DNA of 64,000 nt, from the NCBI RefSeq assembly GCF_944393015.1, contig NZ_CALXYQ010000013.1:1-64000 (forward strand), read 5' to 3'. The notes below the pieces were generated by a model, which saw only the letters and a program-made list of their open reading frames with translations, did not search any database and had not been told where the DNA came from. The position numbers and the translations under genes are program-made. This document shows, in pieces, positions 27,003-33,734 of this stretch. This stretch comes from an uncultured Brachyspira sp. GTDB lineage: Bacteria; Spirochaetota; Brachyspiria; Brachyspirales; Brachyspiraceae. How positions within the stretch are numbered: position 1 is the first letter of the stretch; the number at the start of each line of letters is the position of its first letter.

Positions 27003-27198
27003 CCCCGCCCTTTAGGTTTATTGTGCATATTAGAAATATAATCACCATTGTTTTTTTATTTTTATAAGAAAAAGCAATGCCCACCCAAGCTGGGATTAGA
27101 TTTATAGCTTTGTTAAACGCATGCTTAGTTATTTTTAATTATATAGAATAACTATGAATTATAATTATTTTATATTTTTTGCCTGTTTAGCATGCGTT
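27003..27198. repeat. Mirror-symmetric intergenic element, copy B (right half only)
   Basis: The boxes follow the right half of copies A and C in order and spacing: CCCCGCCC (27003-27010), CCCACCC (27080-27086), AACGCATGC (27116-27124) and GCATGCGTT (27190-27198). The left half would fall inside purN and is absent. The terminal arms read GCATGC where A and C have GCACG, and the change is present in both arms, so pairing is kept. The last box runs into the stop codon of the convergent anti-sigma gene. Confidence 0.7.
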
Positions 27199-27721
27199 AT
27201 TTACCCATATAATAAATATAAGCAGACATTATAGATATCTCAGCATTATTATAGTCATCATCTGATGATGCCTCTGCTGCTTCAGGATCAAGATCACCAT
27301 AACTAAAATAGCTTGATAAAGGAGCATAATCATCTTCAGTATTATAATCATCTATGCTAGTTCTTATTATAGAATCATTCAAATCAGCAACCATTAATTT
27401 AGCAGAATCATTTGGATTACCTGGAATATTATTATTGTTATATATTGTACTTACTGCACCGAATATGAGTAAAGCAGCAGCTATTGAACTTATAGATGCT
27501 ATGACTCTCTTTTTATTGAAAATGCTTGCAGGTTTCTTATTTACTTTGATATTTGACATACCTAAAAGTATAGATGACATAGAATTGATTTCATCTCTGA
27601 ATTTCTGACAAGATTTACAAGAAGCTAAATGTTTTTCCATTTCAAAGATTTCATTAGCATCTAAATCATTGTCCTTATGTCTGCTGATAAGCATTTCATA
27701 ATATTCATGATTATTTTTCAT
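27197..27721 (-). CDS. Zinc-finger anti-sigma factor
   Basis: The 174-residue protein has the ZAS zinc-binding motif H31-x3-C35-x2-C38 (HLASCKSC) of zf-HC2 anti-sigma factors. One membrane helix (about 70-92, RVIASISSIAAALLIFGAV) and an Asp/Glu/Tyr-rich extracytoplasmic tail follow. It would hold the ECF sigma factor at the inner membrane. Its start overlaps the sigma gene stop by 4 bases, the standard coupled arrangement. Its stop codon lies in the last bases of repeat copy B. Confidence 0.88.
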   Translation of the reverse strand: MKNNHEYYEMLISRHKDNDLDANEIFEMEKHLASCKSCQKFRDEINSMSSILLGMSNIKVNKKPASIFNKKRVIASISSIAAALLIFGAVSTIYNNNNIPGNPNDSAKLMVADLNDSIIRTSIDDYNTEDDYAPLSSYFSYGDLDPEAAEASSDDDYNNAEISIMSAYIYYMGK

Positions 27722-28284: not shown

Positions 28285-28743
28285 CTATCTCATCATGCAG
28301 CTGTTTAGCTGAGCTTTTTGCTCCGGAGTAAGAACAGCTATAATATCCAAATCTCTCACTATCCTTAAATAATCTCTTAAAGCCTCTTGCTCTTTTTTCT
28401 GTTTTATCAGCTCTTTAATAGCATTTCTATCAGTATTGTCTTTCATTAACTCCAATCTTATACTGTTTTCTATTCTTTCTATTTCTAATCTGATAGGTTC
28501 TTCTTCTGTAATAAATTTGATGGCTATATCATACATTCTTTCAGCCTGTTCATCAGTTAGAGTTATACCAATTTTTCTAAAAAACTGTAAAGGATCATGT
28601 CCTAATCTTTTATCAAATTCGCCTCCTCTTCTATTTCTTCCATGTCCAGGCCCATGAGGACCGGGACCTTTAGGACCCGGTTGTGCAAAAATTGACAAAG
28701 ATAATAATAATATCAAAGATACAGTATAAAATATTTTATTCAT
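28285..28743 (-). CDS. Spy/CpxP-like periplasmic stress protein
   Basis: The 152-residue protein has a signal peptide (MNKIFYTVSLILLLSLSIFAQ) and a Gly/Pro/His/Arg-rich linker (about 21-42). An all-helical domain with LTxxQ-type motifs follows (ITLTDEQAERM and VLTPEQKAQL), as in Spy, CpxP and CnrX-like sensors. Such proteins act as periplasmic chaperones or as stress sensors. It is the first gene of the sigma/anti-sigma operon, so it may help sense envelope damage or metal. GGAGAG lies before ATG. Confidence 0.75.
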   Translation of the reverse strand: MNKIFYTVSLILLLSLSIFAQPGPKGPGPHGPGHGRNRRGGEFDKRLGHDPLQFFRKIGITLTDEQAERMYDIAIKFITEEEPIRLEIERIENSIRLELMKDNTDRNAIKELIKQKKEQEALRDYLRIVRDLDIIAVLTPEQKAQLNSCMMR

Positions 28744-28795: not shown

Positions 28796-28824
28796 TTAGA
28801 CGTAAACATTATTTAAAAAGTTCC
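28796..28824 (-). promoter_or_regulatory. ECF-type promoter of the Spy-like/sigma/anti-sigma operon
   Basis: Read on the minus strand: GGAAC (28824-28820), 17 bases, CGTCTAA (28802-28796). The same boxes occur at 29284-29257 and 30487-30514. It lies about 53 bases before the Spy-like start codon. Confidence 0.75.
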
Positions 28825-28826
28825 CA

Positions 28827-29225
28827 CTATTTTTTAAAAATAATATAATATTTTATCCTTTTTATCTCATTATCTGAAAATAATGATAATATATCCAAGT
28901 CGCATGACATTATAGTATAATCAAAATCGGCTTCTTTTGCTTTTTTCTCAAATATTAACTGTTTAACACTCTCTAAATCCACATTTTCTTTTTTAAATTC
29001 GTCATTTATTTTCATATCAATTTTATTTATTTCAAATAAAATCTTTCTAGCATCTTTTAAGTATTTTTTTGTGATTGAATTTATAGTGTATTTTTTTTCT
29101 AAGTCTATATCCACTCCGGCATCAGTTAATACTTTAATAGAAGCATCATTTATTATAAAATGTTCTTCGGCATATAAGCTATATATATTAAAAATTAATA
29201 CCGCAATAATCATTATTTTTTTCAT
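28827..29225 (-). CDS. Second Spy/CpxP-like periplasmic protein
   Basis: The 132-residue protein has a signal peptide (MKKIMIIAVLIFNIYSLYAE) and a helical domain whose spacing parallels the neighbouring 152-residue protein. INKIDMKINDEFKKENVDLESVKQLIFEKKAKEADF matches IERIENSIRLELMKDNTDRNAIKELIKQKKEQEAL, and CDLDILSLFSDNEIKRI matches RDLDIIAVLTPEQKAQL. It is a diverged paralogue without the Gly/Pro linker. It has its own copy of the ECF promoter, so it belongs to the same regulon. Confidence 0.65.
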   Translation of the reverse strand: MKKIMIIAVLIFNIYSLYAEEHFIINDASIKVLTDAGVDIDLEKKYTINSITKKYLKDARKILFEINKIDMKINDEFKKENVDLESVKQLIFEKKAKEADFDYTIMSCDLDILSLFSDNEIKRIKYYIIFKK

Positions 29226-29256
29226 ATAAAAACCTCTTGATTTGATTATTTCTCAT

Positions 29257-29284
29257 TTAGACGAATGAATTATTAAAAAGTTCC
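29257..29284 (-). promoter_or_regulatory. ECF-type promoter of the second Spy-like gene
   Basis: Read on the minus strand: GGAAC (29284-29280), 16 bases, CGTCTAA (29263-29257), about 32 bases before the start codon. After GGAAC the T-run (TTTTT) is shared with the copy at 28824-28796. Confidence 0.75.
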
Positions 29285-29374
29285 TAAAAATAGTTTTATA
29301 TTTTACGCTTTAAAAAATAAAGTATTTATATTATAATAAAATGAATATATTGTTTATGTAATTTGGATATAATA

Positions 29375-30439
29375 ATGTATAAAATAATTTTTTTAGATGA
29401 GAAATTAAAGACAATAAAACTTCTCTATGATAATAAAAGTAATGATGAAAATGCTATGTTTTCACTTATGAAATATATAAAATCTAAAATAAATGGAAAA
29501 ATAGAAAGATCAAATGAAGGCTTTTTATTGTTTAATGATGAAAAAAAATATTTATTTTATATATTGGATAATGATGCTATATGTATAAAAGTGCTTATGC
29601 ATGATGATAAAGTTGCTTTTGCCAATTTTAAATATATGGAAAAAGAGTTTAAAAATTATATAGATGAAATTAATATATTGATTGCAAAAGAGAAGATAGA
29701 AAATATAAATAAGTCAATAAAAAATAATATGTGGCTTGATTTTATGATCTCTAATTATGGTAATAACTTGAATATAGTAGGAGGCAATGATTTAAGCTGC
29801 AGTCATATTATAGAAATTATTTTTAAAAATGCTTCTTTTGTTCAATGTTCAAAGTATTTTAATGCATGTCCGAATGAATATGATATATTTCATTTATGCA
29901 GTAATGATGAAATAGAAGAAGTAATTAAAAAATATAAAAATGTCATTAATGGTAAATATTCTATCATGATAAAAATTAAAGCAGATGATATGAATAGTTA
30001 TTTTTATATAGCATGCGATGGAATAGACTTTATTTATAAAGAGGTAGTATATGATTATGATTTTACTTCTCTTTATACTGCCGACAAAGAAAATATAATA
30101 AAAAAATATGATCTTATAAAAGAAGGAGATTCTTGGTATCATGAGAAAGAAAACTCACATAAGACATTAATATTTACAGATAAATTTTTCAATAGAAATG
30201 ATACCATAGGAATATTATTTAGAATATATAAATTATGTTTTGCTAAAGTGAAATATTTTAGAACTTATATGTTTAAATTTGAACCTTATAAATATGATTA
30301 TAAAAAAGGCTTTATAGAAACAGAACTTTGGGATGCTGAATTTTTTAAGCATATTGATTCAGGATATATGCTTGATTTAAGATATTTGCAGTCTATAAAA
30401 GTTTATGATGATTTTATAAAGTTATGTAATGAATTGTAA
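29375..30439 (+). CDS. Hypothetical protein in the ECF stress locus
   Basis: I do not recognise this protein of about 354 residues. It is soluble, without signal peptide or membrane helix, rich in Lys, Asp, Asn, Ile and Tyr. It has scattered cysteines (for example SCSHII, VQCSKYFNACPNEYDIFHLC) that could bind metal but form no known motif. ATG 29375 is preferred to TTG 29363; no clear ribosome site precedes either. It lies divergent to the Spy-like gene and upstream of the RND pump. I find no ECF boxes in front of it, so its membership of the regulon is open. Confidence 0.55.
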   Translation: MYKIIFLDEKLKTIKLLYDNKSNDENAMFSLMKYIKSKINGKIERSNEGFLLFNDEKKYLFYILDNDAICIKVLMHDDKVAFANFKYMEKEFKNYIDEINILIAKEKIENINKSIKNNMWLDFMISNYGNNLNIVGGNDLSCSHIIEIIFKNASFVQCSKYFNACPNEYDIFHLCSNDEIEEVIKKYKNVINGKYSIMIKIKADDMNSYFYIACDGIDFIYKEVVYDYDFTSLYTADKENIIKKYDLIKEGDSWYHEKENSHKTLIFTDKFFNRNDTIGILFRIYKLCFAKVKYFRTYMFKFEPYKYDYKKGFIETELWDAEFFKHIDSGYMLDLRYLQSIKVYDDFIKLCNEL

Positions 30440-30486
30440 GAATTTGAAAAATAAAATGATTATATCATAAAAAAGTAGTTTATATT

Positions 30487-30514
30487 GAAACTTTTTTGAA
30501 AATTATTCGTCTAA
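30487..30514 (+). promoter_or_regulatory. ECF-type promoter of the RND pump gene
   Basis: GAAAC (30487-30491), 16 bases, CGTCTAA (30508-30514). The T-run after the first box and the second box match the two promoters of the sigma locus. It lies about 65 bases before the pump start. Confidence 0.7.
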
Positions 30515-30578: not shown

Positions 30579-33500
30579 ATGAGAAATTTTATAGAATTAG
30601 TAGTAAAAAGACCAGTAGCTGTTTTTATGTGTATGATAGCAGTATTAATATTAGGGATTGTAAGTTTAAGTAAATTATCAGTTGATTTTTTGCCGGATAT
30701 GGAGTTTCCTTATATTACAGTAAGTACAGAATATGATAATGCGGGACCTGAAGAAGTAGAAAAATCGGTTACAAGAATAATTGAAAATGCTGTTGCAACA
30801 GTAAGCGGTATTAATACAATAAGCTCCACTTCAGAGGAAGGTAAGTCAAGCGTATTTATAGAATTTAACTGGGGTACTGACTTAGCAGTTGCTACAGCAG
30901 ATGTAAGAGAAGCTATAGACAGTATAAAGAATTCTTTACCAGATGATGCTGATAGTCCTATAGTGCTTAAATTTTCAACAGATACTACACCTATTATGGA
31001 AATAGCTTTTTTCGGTACAGACAATTTAGGAGCATTATATACATTGATAGATAATCAGGTATTAAATAAAATAGAACAGTCCTCAGGAGTAGCAAGAGCA
31101 GAAATAAGAGGCGGATTAAAAAGTGAAATGAAAGTTGATTTAGTGTTAAATAGACTTCATGCTTATGGTATAGATATTAACAGCATAGTTTCTCTTTTAT
31201 CCTCAGAAAATCAGAATCTATCCGGCGGTGATACTTATGAAGGAGTTTATAAGTATACTCTAAGAACTATGGGTGAGTTTACAACTCCGGAAGATATTGA
31301 AAATACTGTTGTAGTATTAAAAACAAATGATACACCTATAAAATTAAAAGATATAGGAAGAGTTTATCAGGGATATAGTGATGATTCTGAAATAGTAAAA
31401 ATTAATGGAATGCCTGCAATATCTGTATCAGTTAATAAAGAATCAGGCGGAAATGCTGTTAATGTATCAAAGGCGGTAAAAAAACAATTAGCTAATCTTA
31501 ATCTTCCTGAAGGCGTAGAATATGAGATATTATTTAATAGTGCTGATAATGTAAATCAGGCTATAAAGGGAGTATTAGATACAGCTTGGCAGGGCGGATT
31601 ATTTGCCGTTATTGTATTAATGCTTTATTTATGGAATGTAAAAACAGTTTCTATAATAGCAGTTTCAATTCCTATGTCTATTATCATTACATTTACATTG
31701 ATGTATTTTATGGGAATAACTTTGAATATTATATCATTATCAGGACTTGTTTTAGGTATTGGTATGATGGTTGATAACTCTATTGTAGTGCTTGAAAATA
31801 TATTCTATTACCGAAATAATGGGTATGGTAAATATTCTTCGGCTATCAATGGTACTTCAACTGTTGCTCTTGCGATATCTGCTTCAACTCTTACAACTAT
31901 AGCAGTATTTTTGCCTTTCCTTTTCGTTGAAGGACAAACAGGACAATTATTTAGAGATTTATGTATTACAGTTACAGTTTCAATGATAGGTTCTTTATTC
32001 GTTGCTCTTACTATAGTTCCTATGCTTGGGGCTAGACTTGTAACAAATAAGAAAACTAAATTTTTAATACCTATAGAAAATTTTGTTAATAATAAATTCC
32101 ATAGTAAAGTTAATAATCTATATTCTAATTTATTAAGCTATTCTATAAAAAATAAAAAGAAAGTATTTATCTCTTCATTATCAGTGGTGTTTGTAATAAT
32201 AATATTAGGCTTAATTTTTATAGGTAAGGAAGGATTTCCTACTTCAGATGAAGGACAATTCAAAATAGAAGTGAAAATGCCTGTAGGTACTAAATCAGAA
32301 CAGACACAGGCTTTCATTACTAGAATGGAAGGCGATATACAAGCGGCAATCGGAGAAGAAGATTTTTACAGAATGCAGTCTAGGGTAAAATCAGGTTCTG
32401 AAGAAAATTCGGCTGAGATAAGGGTTCAGCTTAGAGGTAAAAGCGAAGGAAGAAAAAAGTCAGTTGATGAATATATAGAGATAACAAGAAAATCATTATT
32501 ATCTTATCCTGCACAGATTAATATATCCGCAGTAACAACATCGTCTATAGGCAGCATCGGAAGAAACGGAGGAACAGGAGGAAATGAAATAGAAATAGAA
32601 CTTGTAGGAGATGATTTGGATAAGTCCACTGAAATAGCTAATAATATAATAAAAGCAATATCGGATATAGAAGGAATAAGAGAACCAAGACTTACAAGAG
32701 ATGATTCTAATCCTGAGTTAAAAATATATGTTAATAGGGAAATAGCAGCTAAAATGGGGGTTAATGTTAATACAATAGCGAATATTATTAAAACTAGTTT
32801 TGCAGGTACAACAGCTACAACTATGACTCCTGCTAATTCTGATGTTACTGATATAGATGTTAATGTTCGTTTAGGAGAGCCTGACAGATTAAAGATAGAT
32901 GATATATCAAGAATTATGATACCTACAACATCAGGAATAGTACCTATATCATCAATAGCAACTATAGAAAAAAGCTATGGCCCTACAGAAGTAGAAAGAA
33001 AAGACAGCACAAGAATAACAACTATCAAAGCATCAGCTTATAATAGAGCATTAAATGAAATAATGCAGGATGTTCAGAATAATATTTCAAAAGAAGTATT
33101 TCTTCCTTCAGGATTCACTATTAATTATGCCGGAGATTTTGAGAATATGAAAGAAGCATTTTTACAGCTCCTTCAGGCATTTATTTTAGCATTGATTTTA
33201 GTTTATGCTATAATGGCTAGTCAGTTTGAATCTTTTATTGCTCCTTTCGTTATAGCATTTGCAATACCATTTGGTTTTGCTGGTTCTTTAGTGGCATTAT
33301 TTATAGGAAGACAAACTTTGAGCGTATACAGCGGAATAGGTTTTATAGTGCTTATTGGTATTGTAGTAAATAATGGTATTGTACTTATAGACTATATGAA
33401 TCAGCTTATGTATGAAAAAAATATTAATGGAGATGATGCAGCATTGGAGTCAGGGCCAAGAAGATTAAGACCTGTACTTATGACAACGCTTACTACTATA

Positions 33501-33734
33501 TTAGGACTTTTACCTATGGCATTAGCAGGAGGAAGCGGAAATGAAATTTATCAGCCTTTATCCATTGCTATACTAGGAGGACTTTTAGTTTCAACTGCAT
33601 TTACTCTTATAATAGTACCTACTATTTATGCCGCTATAAGAAATAAAATACCTCTAAAAGATTATGATAAAAAAGATTTAGAAAGTAAAAATGATTTTGC
33701 TGATTATGATACTATAAATGTTACAGGTAAGTGA
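30579..33734 (+). CDS. RND-family efflux transporter permease
   Basis: The 1051-residue protein has the length and duplicated layout of AcrB/HAE1-type RND pumps. There is an N-terminal helix (RPVAVFMCMIAVLILGIVSL), two large periplasmic loops (about 35-330 and 550-860) and two six-helix blocks. TM4 carries GIGMMVDNSIVVLENI with the proton-relay Asp. RND pumps export drugs, lipids or metals with an adaptor and an outer-membrane channel. Neither partner gene is adjacent. The upstream ECF promoter suggests induction by envelope stress. The substrate is unknown. Confidence 0.92.
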   Translation: MRNFIELVVKRPVAVFMCMIAVLILGIVSLSKLSVDFLPDMEFPYITVSTEYDNAGPEEVEKSVTRIIENAVATVSGINTISSTSEEGKSSVFIEFNWGTDLAVATADVREAIDSIKNSLPDDADSPIVLKFSTDTTPIMEIAFFGTDNLGALYTLIDNQVLNKIEQSSGVARAEIRGGLKSEMKVDLVLNRLHAYGIDINSIVSLLSSENQNLSGGDTYEGVYKYTLRTMGEFTTPEDIENTVVVLKTNDTPIKLKDIGRVYQGYSDDSEIVKINGMPAISVSVNKESGGNAVNVSKAVKKQLANLNLPEGVEYEILFNSADNVNQAIKGVLDTAWQGGLFAVIVLMLYLWNVKTVSIIAVSIPMSIIITFTLMYFMGITLNIISLSGLVLGIGMMVDNSIVVLENIFYYRNNGYGKYSSAINGTSTVALAISASTLTTIAVFLPFLFVEGQTGQLFRDLCITVTVSMIGSLFVALTIVPMLGARLVTNKKTKFLIPIENFVNNKFHSKVNNLYSNLLSYSIKNKKKVFISSLSVVFVIIILGLIFIGKEGFPTSDEGQFKIEVKMPVGTKSEQTQAFITRMEGDIQAAIGEEDFYRMQSRVKSGSEENSAEIRVQLRGKSEGRKKSVDEYIEITRKSLLSYPAQINISAVTTSSIGSIGRNGGTGGNEIEIELVGDDLDKSTEIANNIIKAISDIEGIREPRLTRDDSNPELKIYVNREIAAKMGVNVNTIANIIKTSFAGTTATTMTPANSDVTDIDVNVRLGEPDRLKIDDISRIMIPTTSGIVPISSIATIEKSYGPTEVERKDSTRITTIKASAYNRALNEIMQDVQNNISKEVFLPSGFTINYAGDFENMKEAFLQLLQAFILALILVYAIMASQFESFIAPFVIAFAIPFGFAGSLVALFIGRQTLSVYSGIGFIVLIGIVVNNGIVLIDYMNQLMYEKNINGDDAALESGPRRLRPVLMTTLTTILGLLPMALAGGSGNEIYQPLSIAILGGLLVSTAFTLIIVPTIYAAIRNKIPLKDYDKKDLESKNDFADYDTINVTGK

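Follow-up and report, generated by a model that had tools for sequence, protein, structure and literature searches.

The locus analysed here is best explained as the control centre of an autoregulated envelope-stress regulon under an ECF sigma factor, in which the Spy-like protein SpyA would act as a brake on the sigma factor until stress brings about its release (probability roughly 0.8). That the regulon is real and conserved is, on the evidence of sequence, close to certain. It is apparently also new: no sigma regulon of Brachyspira was described in the full-text literature searched, which took in few subscription papers, and the paper on the B. hyodysenteriae genome goes no further than a count of three alternative sigma factors (PMC2650404). 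The SpyA brake is put forward more tentatively, on the strength of co-transcription and analogy, at odds a little short of even.

Results

The window, a stretch of 64,000 nucleotides from an uncultured Brachyspira sp., contains three predicted ECF promoters (boxes). The first belongs to the spyA-sigma-anti-sigma operon on the minus strand (28824-28796, GGAACTTTTTAAATAATGTTTACGTCTAA, GGAAC-N17-CGTCTAA), the second to spyB on the same strand (29284-29257, GGAACTTTTTAATAATTCATTCGTCTAA, GGAAC-N16-CGTCTAA) and the third to an RND permease gene on the plus strand (30487-30514, GAAACTTTTTTGAAAATTATTCGTCTAA, GAAAC-N16-CGTCTAA). From the end of the -10 element to the start codon the distance is 52 nt for spyA (28743), 31 nt for spyB (29225) and 64 nt for the RND gene (30579). 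The earlier note had proposed these three shared sites, and direct reading of the sequence confirmed every coordinate and spacer. Within the window the pattern AACTTTTTN{10,14}CGTCTAA matches the three boxes alone, with no match in 100 dinucleotide shuffles; across the 3.44-Mb genome, GRAACTTTTTN{10,14}CGTCTAA occurs at six sites and the backwards pattern at none.

All genes that the earlier note had named, i.e. those for an ECF sigma factor, an anti-sigma factor, Spy-like proteins and an RND permease, were recovered, in the main by profile searches. The operon runs on the minus strand in the order spyA (28743-28285), sigma (28263-27718) and anti-sigma (27721-27197), with a gap of 21 nt between the first two genes and an overlap of 4 nt between the last two. 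The sigma factor (181 aa) has two domains, PF04542 at residues 25-92 and PF08281 at 119-170. Its closest solved relatives are SigW (5WUQ) and RpoE, and its score for the RpoE equivalog TIGR02939 stays below the cut-off (99.3 vs 236.15 bits). Region 4 of E. coli sigma-E contacts the -35 element through T169, R171, S172, R173, F175, R176 and R178 (PMC6713349); at these seven positions the window's sigma factor reads T, R, T, R, F, R and R; Y156 is conserved and R149 substituted. Its recognition helix reads PVNTVRTRIFRARK, compared with PVGTVRSRIFRARE in sigma-E.

The RND efflux permease (30579..33734, plus strand) is of the AcrB type and matches PF00873, the AcrB/AcrD/AcrF family, over its full length (3.2e-238, 793.6 bits, residues 4-1020), its closest solved homologue being E. 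coli MdtB (9LYQ, 2.1e-108), ahead of CusA and ZneA. Between spyB and the RND gene lies an ORF of 358 aa (29363-30439) that is present in most Brachyspira loci at 56-97% identity; no strict box precedes it, and searches of Pfam and NCBIfam gave no match.

Pattern scans of the whole genome, which undercount degenerate boxes, yielded nine further good sites, for a total of about 12. Four of these precede Spy-like genes: a pair with a short second copy (C4:131560), a group of three G/Y-rich or Spy-like proteins of which one matches PF13801 at 1e-11 (C5:62734), a gene whose reading frame is seemingly interrupted in this genome (C9:80029), and a gene for a P-rich Spy-like protein followed by MscL (C41:8792). 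Three precede RND permease genes, one alone (C20:46001), one together with a small lipoprotein-like protein (C5:100482) and one together with an outer-membrane factor and a membrane-fusion protein (C10:22104). The remaining two precede genes for a periplasmic rhodanese (C11:13439) and for a DUF4405 membrane protein just 3' of a P-type ATPase reading frame (C4:90267). Altogether, RND permeases under this one box type number four in the genome, and Spy-like loci at least five. The system had been predicted to be compact; the regulon is instead dispersed and mostly concerned with the envelope, and it takes in several pumps of the RND type and several families of Spy-like proteins.

Two observations on these genes may be added. 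At L093 (contig C5 of this genome) and its orthologues the box-controlled secreted proteins are very rich in Gly, Tyr and Arg (YGRGYG repeats), and some are fused to a Spy-like LTQEQ domain. In this same genome two box-controlled Spy-like genes (L092:5350-5526 and L095:1070-1474) appear to be shortened or frame-broken, with longer copies in relatives.

Across the genus, the strong form GGAACTTTTN{11,13}CGTCTAA has 172 exact sites, distributed over 26/26 Brachyspira genomes, and the reversed pattern has none; elsewhere in the phylum three sites were found, in 2 of 132 genomes. An origin of the boxes by chance or as repeats was rejected on the evidence of the shuffles, the reversed patterns and this near-absence elsewhere in the phylum. 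A box precedes spyA, and with it the sigma factor's own operon, at all 14 named Brachyspira loci, so that autoregulation is predicted. In an alignment of these 14 upstream regions that was guided solely by homology of the genes, GGGAACTTTT and CGTCTAA stood out as the long blocks of full conservation, and the spacer drifted. The spyB box is present wherever spyB was found together with its upstream region. For the RND orthologue, the box is kept at 8/8 loci with a weaker -35 element, GAAAC or AAAAC; an apparent loss at five of the eight proved to be an artefact of the strict G[AG]AAC pattern, as AAAAC-N15/16-CGTCTAA is present there, in one case as CGTCTAG. The proposal of an ECF regulon with conserved predicted promoters and an RND pump among its outputs is thus supported by both box conservation and the genome scan.

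The gene order is equally persistent. At the 14 named loci, in two other genera of the family and in a sister family, the sigma operon opens with spyA, and the sigma gene adjoins its own anti-sigma gene. The two other genera (three genomes) have the spy-sigma-anti operon with a box, and boxes there also precede genes for an outer-membrane efflux protein and for H/G/N-rich Spy-like proteins. Both genomes of the sister family share the order, and one has GGAACT-N16-CGTC upstream. Outside the taxonomic order, the search for Spy-like neighbours of ECF sigma genes gave only weak matches, at two Bacteroidetes-type loci (L043 and L060). The window's sigma gene has a counterpart in 26/26 Brachyspira genomes. 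In G004 (L181, G004:C1:2136395-2136936, minus strand) it is broken by stops or a frameshift and the boxes remain; this genome may be able to do without the circuit, or the interruption may be of recent date or due to faulty assembly.

An ORF follows 140 of the 149 distinct boxes examined, at a median distance of 48 nt. By a simple hydrophobicity rule, 135 of these 140 first genes encode a hydrophobic N-terminal segment of signal or transmembrane type, as against 20 of 54 background ORFs of the window; the box-gene counts include orthologues and are therefore not independent. Spy/CpxP-like proteins, RND pumps, rhodanese, DUF4405 proteins and MscL predominate among the products; gene families recur across genomes, and a few boxes (L118, L173 and L174) precede cytoplasmic or metabolic genes.

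For the other nine boxes, no ORF of at least 50 aa begins within 260 nt. G001 and G003 have two tandem boxes, each followed by a segment of some 85-90 nt that ends in a strong hairpin and a T-run, with z-scores from -3.3 to -4.5 for the three segments that were folded; these segments (L117, G001:C1:1631480-1631676, and L172, G003:C14:428-612, both on the minus strand) share TTTTCATATNAGACTC. Since TTTTCATATNAGACTC is confined to these two among the 26 genomes, this small-RNA core is not a general output. Within the clade of G008, G010, G016 and G019 (L187, L147, L206 and L208), GGAGGTTTATG stands after the boxes, along with tiny reading frames in place of a gene; the boxes are tandem at three of these loci and a strong hairpin with a T-run is found at three. 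An Rfam search of the ORF-less boxes returned no family. These terminator-ended segments are candidate small RNAs.

The anti-sigma factor (27197..27721, minus strand) has a ZAS domain with the HxxxCxxC signature (PF13490, 23.8 vs a cut-off of 22.2 bits), one transmembrane helix, read from the sequence, and an acidic periplasmic tail of 16 D/E and 3 K/R. The prediction of a membrane anti-sigma with an acidic tail therefore stood, with a zf-HC2 domain added to it. The Hx3Cx2C signature occurs in 23/23 homologues and, together with the helix, places the protein in class I (ASDI/ZAS). The protein would bind and inhibit its cognate sigma factor. Two motifs stand out in the tail: LSSYFSY in its middle (27299..27319, minus strand, residues 135-141) and MSAYIYY towards the C-terminus (27209..27229, minus strand, residues 165-171). 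Among the 23 homologues, which represent three genera-level lineages, S166, Y168 and Y171 of the latter are invariant, as are L135 and Y138 of the former, with S136 and F139 at 0.96. Mean conservation of the tail columns is 0.79 in the two motifs and 0.50 outside them. Conservation amid such fast drift gives the two S-x-Y-phi-x-Y motifs the look of a docking site, for which they are candidates; they could also bind something other than SpyA or a protease. In the two genomes of the sister family, the anti-sigma likewise has a related aromatic motif at its end (MAAYFSATDL and LESFVAFTSR). A C-terminal signal of the OMP type was considered and rejected, as most tails end in MGK, ME or VGRD and not in F.

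SpyA (28285..28743, minus strand), the product of the first operon gene, is a periplasmic protein of the Spy/CpxP type. It matches PF13801 (4.7e-8, 33.7 vs 29.2 bits) and PF07813 (2.7e-7, 31.7 vs 24.3 bits) as well as the solved CpxP structure 3ITF (5.7e-5), and falls below the NCBIfam equivalog cut-offs for CpxP and Spy (24.9 vs 160 and 24.3 vs 174 bits). Its AlphaFold2 model is a helical hairpin (pLDDT 80) whose top Foldseek matches are CpxP, ZraP, Spy and CnrX, with probabilities near 1 and E > 0.001. SpyB (28827..29225, minus strand) is a paralogue with its own promoter and about 32% identity to SpyA (tblastn down to 1e-13). It gave no Pfam or NCBIfam match above cut-off; its model is a similar hairpin (pLDDT 81), with ZraP, CnrX and NccX as best solved matches at high probability and E > 0.1. 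Of the two Spy-like proteins that had been announced, SpyA is thus established by profiles, and SpyB is a candidate by virtue of its paralogy and predicted fold.

Discussion

We propose that the sigma factor brings RNA polymerase to promoters of the form GGAACTTTT-N(11-13)-CGTCTAA and would thereby transcribe its own operon, spyB, the neighbouring RND permease gene and about nine further units. Outputs would comprise Spy/CpxP-like proteins, RND pumps (one with membrane-fusion and outer-membrane partners), rhodanese, DUF4405 and MscL. The likely input port is the acidic, disordered periplasmic tail of the anti-sigma, whose two motifs would be bound by SpyA as a negative regulator, in the manner of CpxP or RseB, and/or by a protease. 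Stress, be it unfolded envelope proteins or toxic compounds or metals, would draw SpyA off the tail. Cleavage of the tail would follow, and then completion of the release by an M50 protease of the RseP type, which would free the sigma factor; newly induced SpyA would restore the brake. One specific form of this scheme, tentative and in our view somewhat more apt to fail than to hold, is that a Spy-family chaperone controls an ECF sigma factor through two aromatic pseudo-substrate motifs in the tail, from which unfolded envelope proteins or pump substrates would titrate the chaperone away. If true, it would be a chaperone-titration sigma switch, which to our knowledge is undescribed for Spy-like proteins. 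The regulon may moreover have multiplied this chaperone fold, giving rise to several paralogues, and terminator-ended small RNAs may belong to it in some species.

SpyA could instead be merely an output chaperone, the tail itself being the sensor that is cut by a site-1 protease, which recognises the motifs or is triggered there in an RseA/DegS-like way, and then by an M50 site-2 protease. The single-pass anti-sigma with its long tail, the conserved motifs and the M50 peptidase in this genome all fit such a cascade. We nevertheless consider it unlikely: spyA heads the sigma operon everywhere it was seen, which is more than would be expected of a mere output, and M50 peptidases are near-universal (14/14 control genomes), so that the presence of one is no more than permissive.

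Less plausible still is a metal sensor of the Cnr/Ncc type, in which SpyA would bind Cu, Ni, Co or Zn, shift its contact with the anti-sigma, free the sigma factor and so induce the pumps. The predicted folds of SpyA and SpyB do match CnrX, NccX and ZraP, and cnrYXH/cnrCBAT combines a Spy-fold sensor, an anti-sigma, an ECF sigma factor and an RND pump by the same logic (PMC4803752). SpyA is also His-rich at the N-terminus in many copies, one genome encodes a DUF305-like lipoprotein, and a P-type ATPase reading frame stands before one of the boxes. However, no His, Cys or Met is invariant among 13 SpyA sequences, which lowers the probability of metal sensing and argues against a CnrX-type site; ligands of that type were accordingly rejected. 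Furthermore, the anti-sigma is of the ZAS type (class I), CnrY belongs to another class (PMC8103513), and the window's RND permease resembles MdtB ahead of the metal pumps.

It is very improbable that the boxes are read, instead or in addition, by the other clear ECF sigma factor of the genome, whose gene (C5:13780) follows a clpX-like gene. That protein, the single clear ECF sigma besides the window's among seven Sigma70_r2 proteins, likewise occurs in 26/26 genomes, but it has SSDSAKSNYSYALKK in place of the recognition helix and lacks the sigma-E-type -35 contact residues, and the box is tied to the operon of the window's ECF in three genera. A reading of the boxes as repeats, or as operators for a repressor, which the recurrence of very similar AT-rich sequences might suggest, is scarcely credible, given that the -35 and -10 blocks alone are conserved, that the spacer is free in sequence although all but one of the 149 boxes measure 28 or 29 nt overall (28 nt in 107, 29 nt in 41, 27 nt in one) and that the boxes are oriented towards genes.

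The regulon under SpyA, sigma and anti-sigma thus reads as an ECF envelope-stress response with Bae- or Cnr-like outputs, and it departs from each of sigma-E, Cnr and BaeSR in at least one defining feature. With E. coli sigma-E, known for its promoter type and membrane anti-sigma (PMC2215328), it shares the -35 contact residues, a near-identical GGAACTT -35 element, a single-pass anti-sigma, autoregulation as read from sequence, a proposed periplasmic brake (there RseB) and, in some species, candidate small-RNA outputs. In contrast to sigma-E, a Spy-like protein takes the place of RseB beside the sigma gene, the outputs are Spy-like proteins and RND pumps, and the anti-sigma is of the zinc type, whereas RseA works independently of a zinc motif (PMC7406223). 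The BaeSR regulon of E. coli (spy, mdtABCD and acrD) similarly brings a Spy chaperone and RND pumps of the MdtB type under a single envelope response that regulates itself (PMC2731931). BaeSR is, however, a two-component system; the control operon described here contains no histidine kinase or response regulator, control is predicted to lie with an ECF sigma factor, and this genome has four RND permeases along with several paralogues of the Spy type. In the cnrYXH-cnrCBAT and ncc systems of Cupriavidus, a Spy-fold protein, an anti-sigma and an ECF sigma factor also share an operon, and the sigma factor transcribes RND genes too (PMC4803752); the present system differs in gene order, in anti-sigma class, in having no conserved metal-ligand residues and in a much larger, dispersed regulon. 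SigW-RsiW of B. subtilis provides the closest solved sigma factor and likewise has a zinc-type membrane anti-sigma. The -35 element of SigW is of the TGAAAC type. We know of no Spy-like partner for SigW-RsiW.

What emerges is a Bae-like set of outputs that appears to be wired to a sigma factor, under an anti-sigma whose tail has two short aromatic motifs as its only well-conserved features. Readable in this way from the sequence, the regulon provides a sensor that can be tested, as well as promoters and targets that can be named. It would place several RND pumps under a single stress switch in a genus to which the swine dysentery agent belongs, a matter that bears on the handling of bile, metals or drugs.

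In three genomes (G007, G009 and G022), boxes also lie upstream of genes that resemble those for methyl-accepting chemotaxis receptors (L183, L191 and L216), which suggests a link between the stress sigma factor and taxis in some species.
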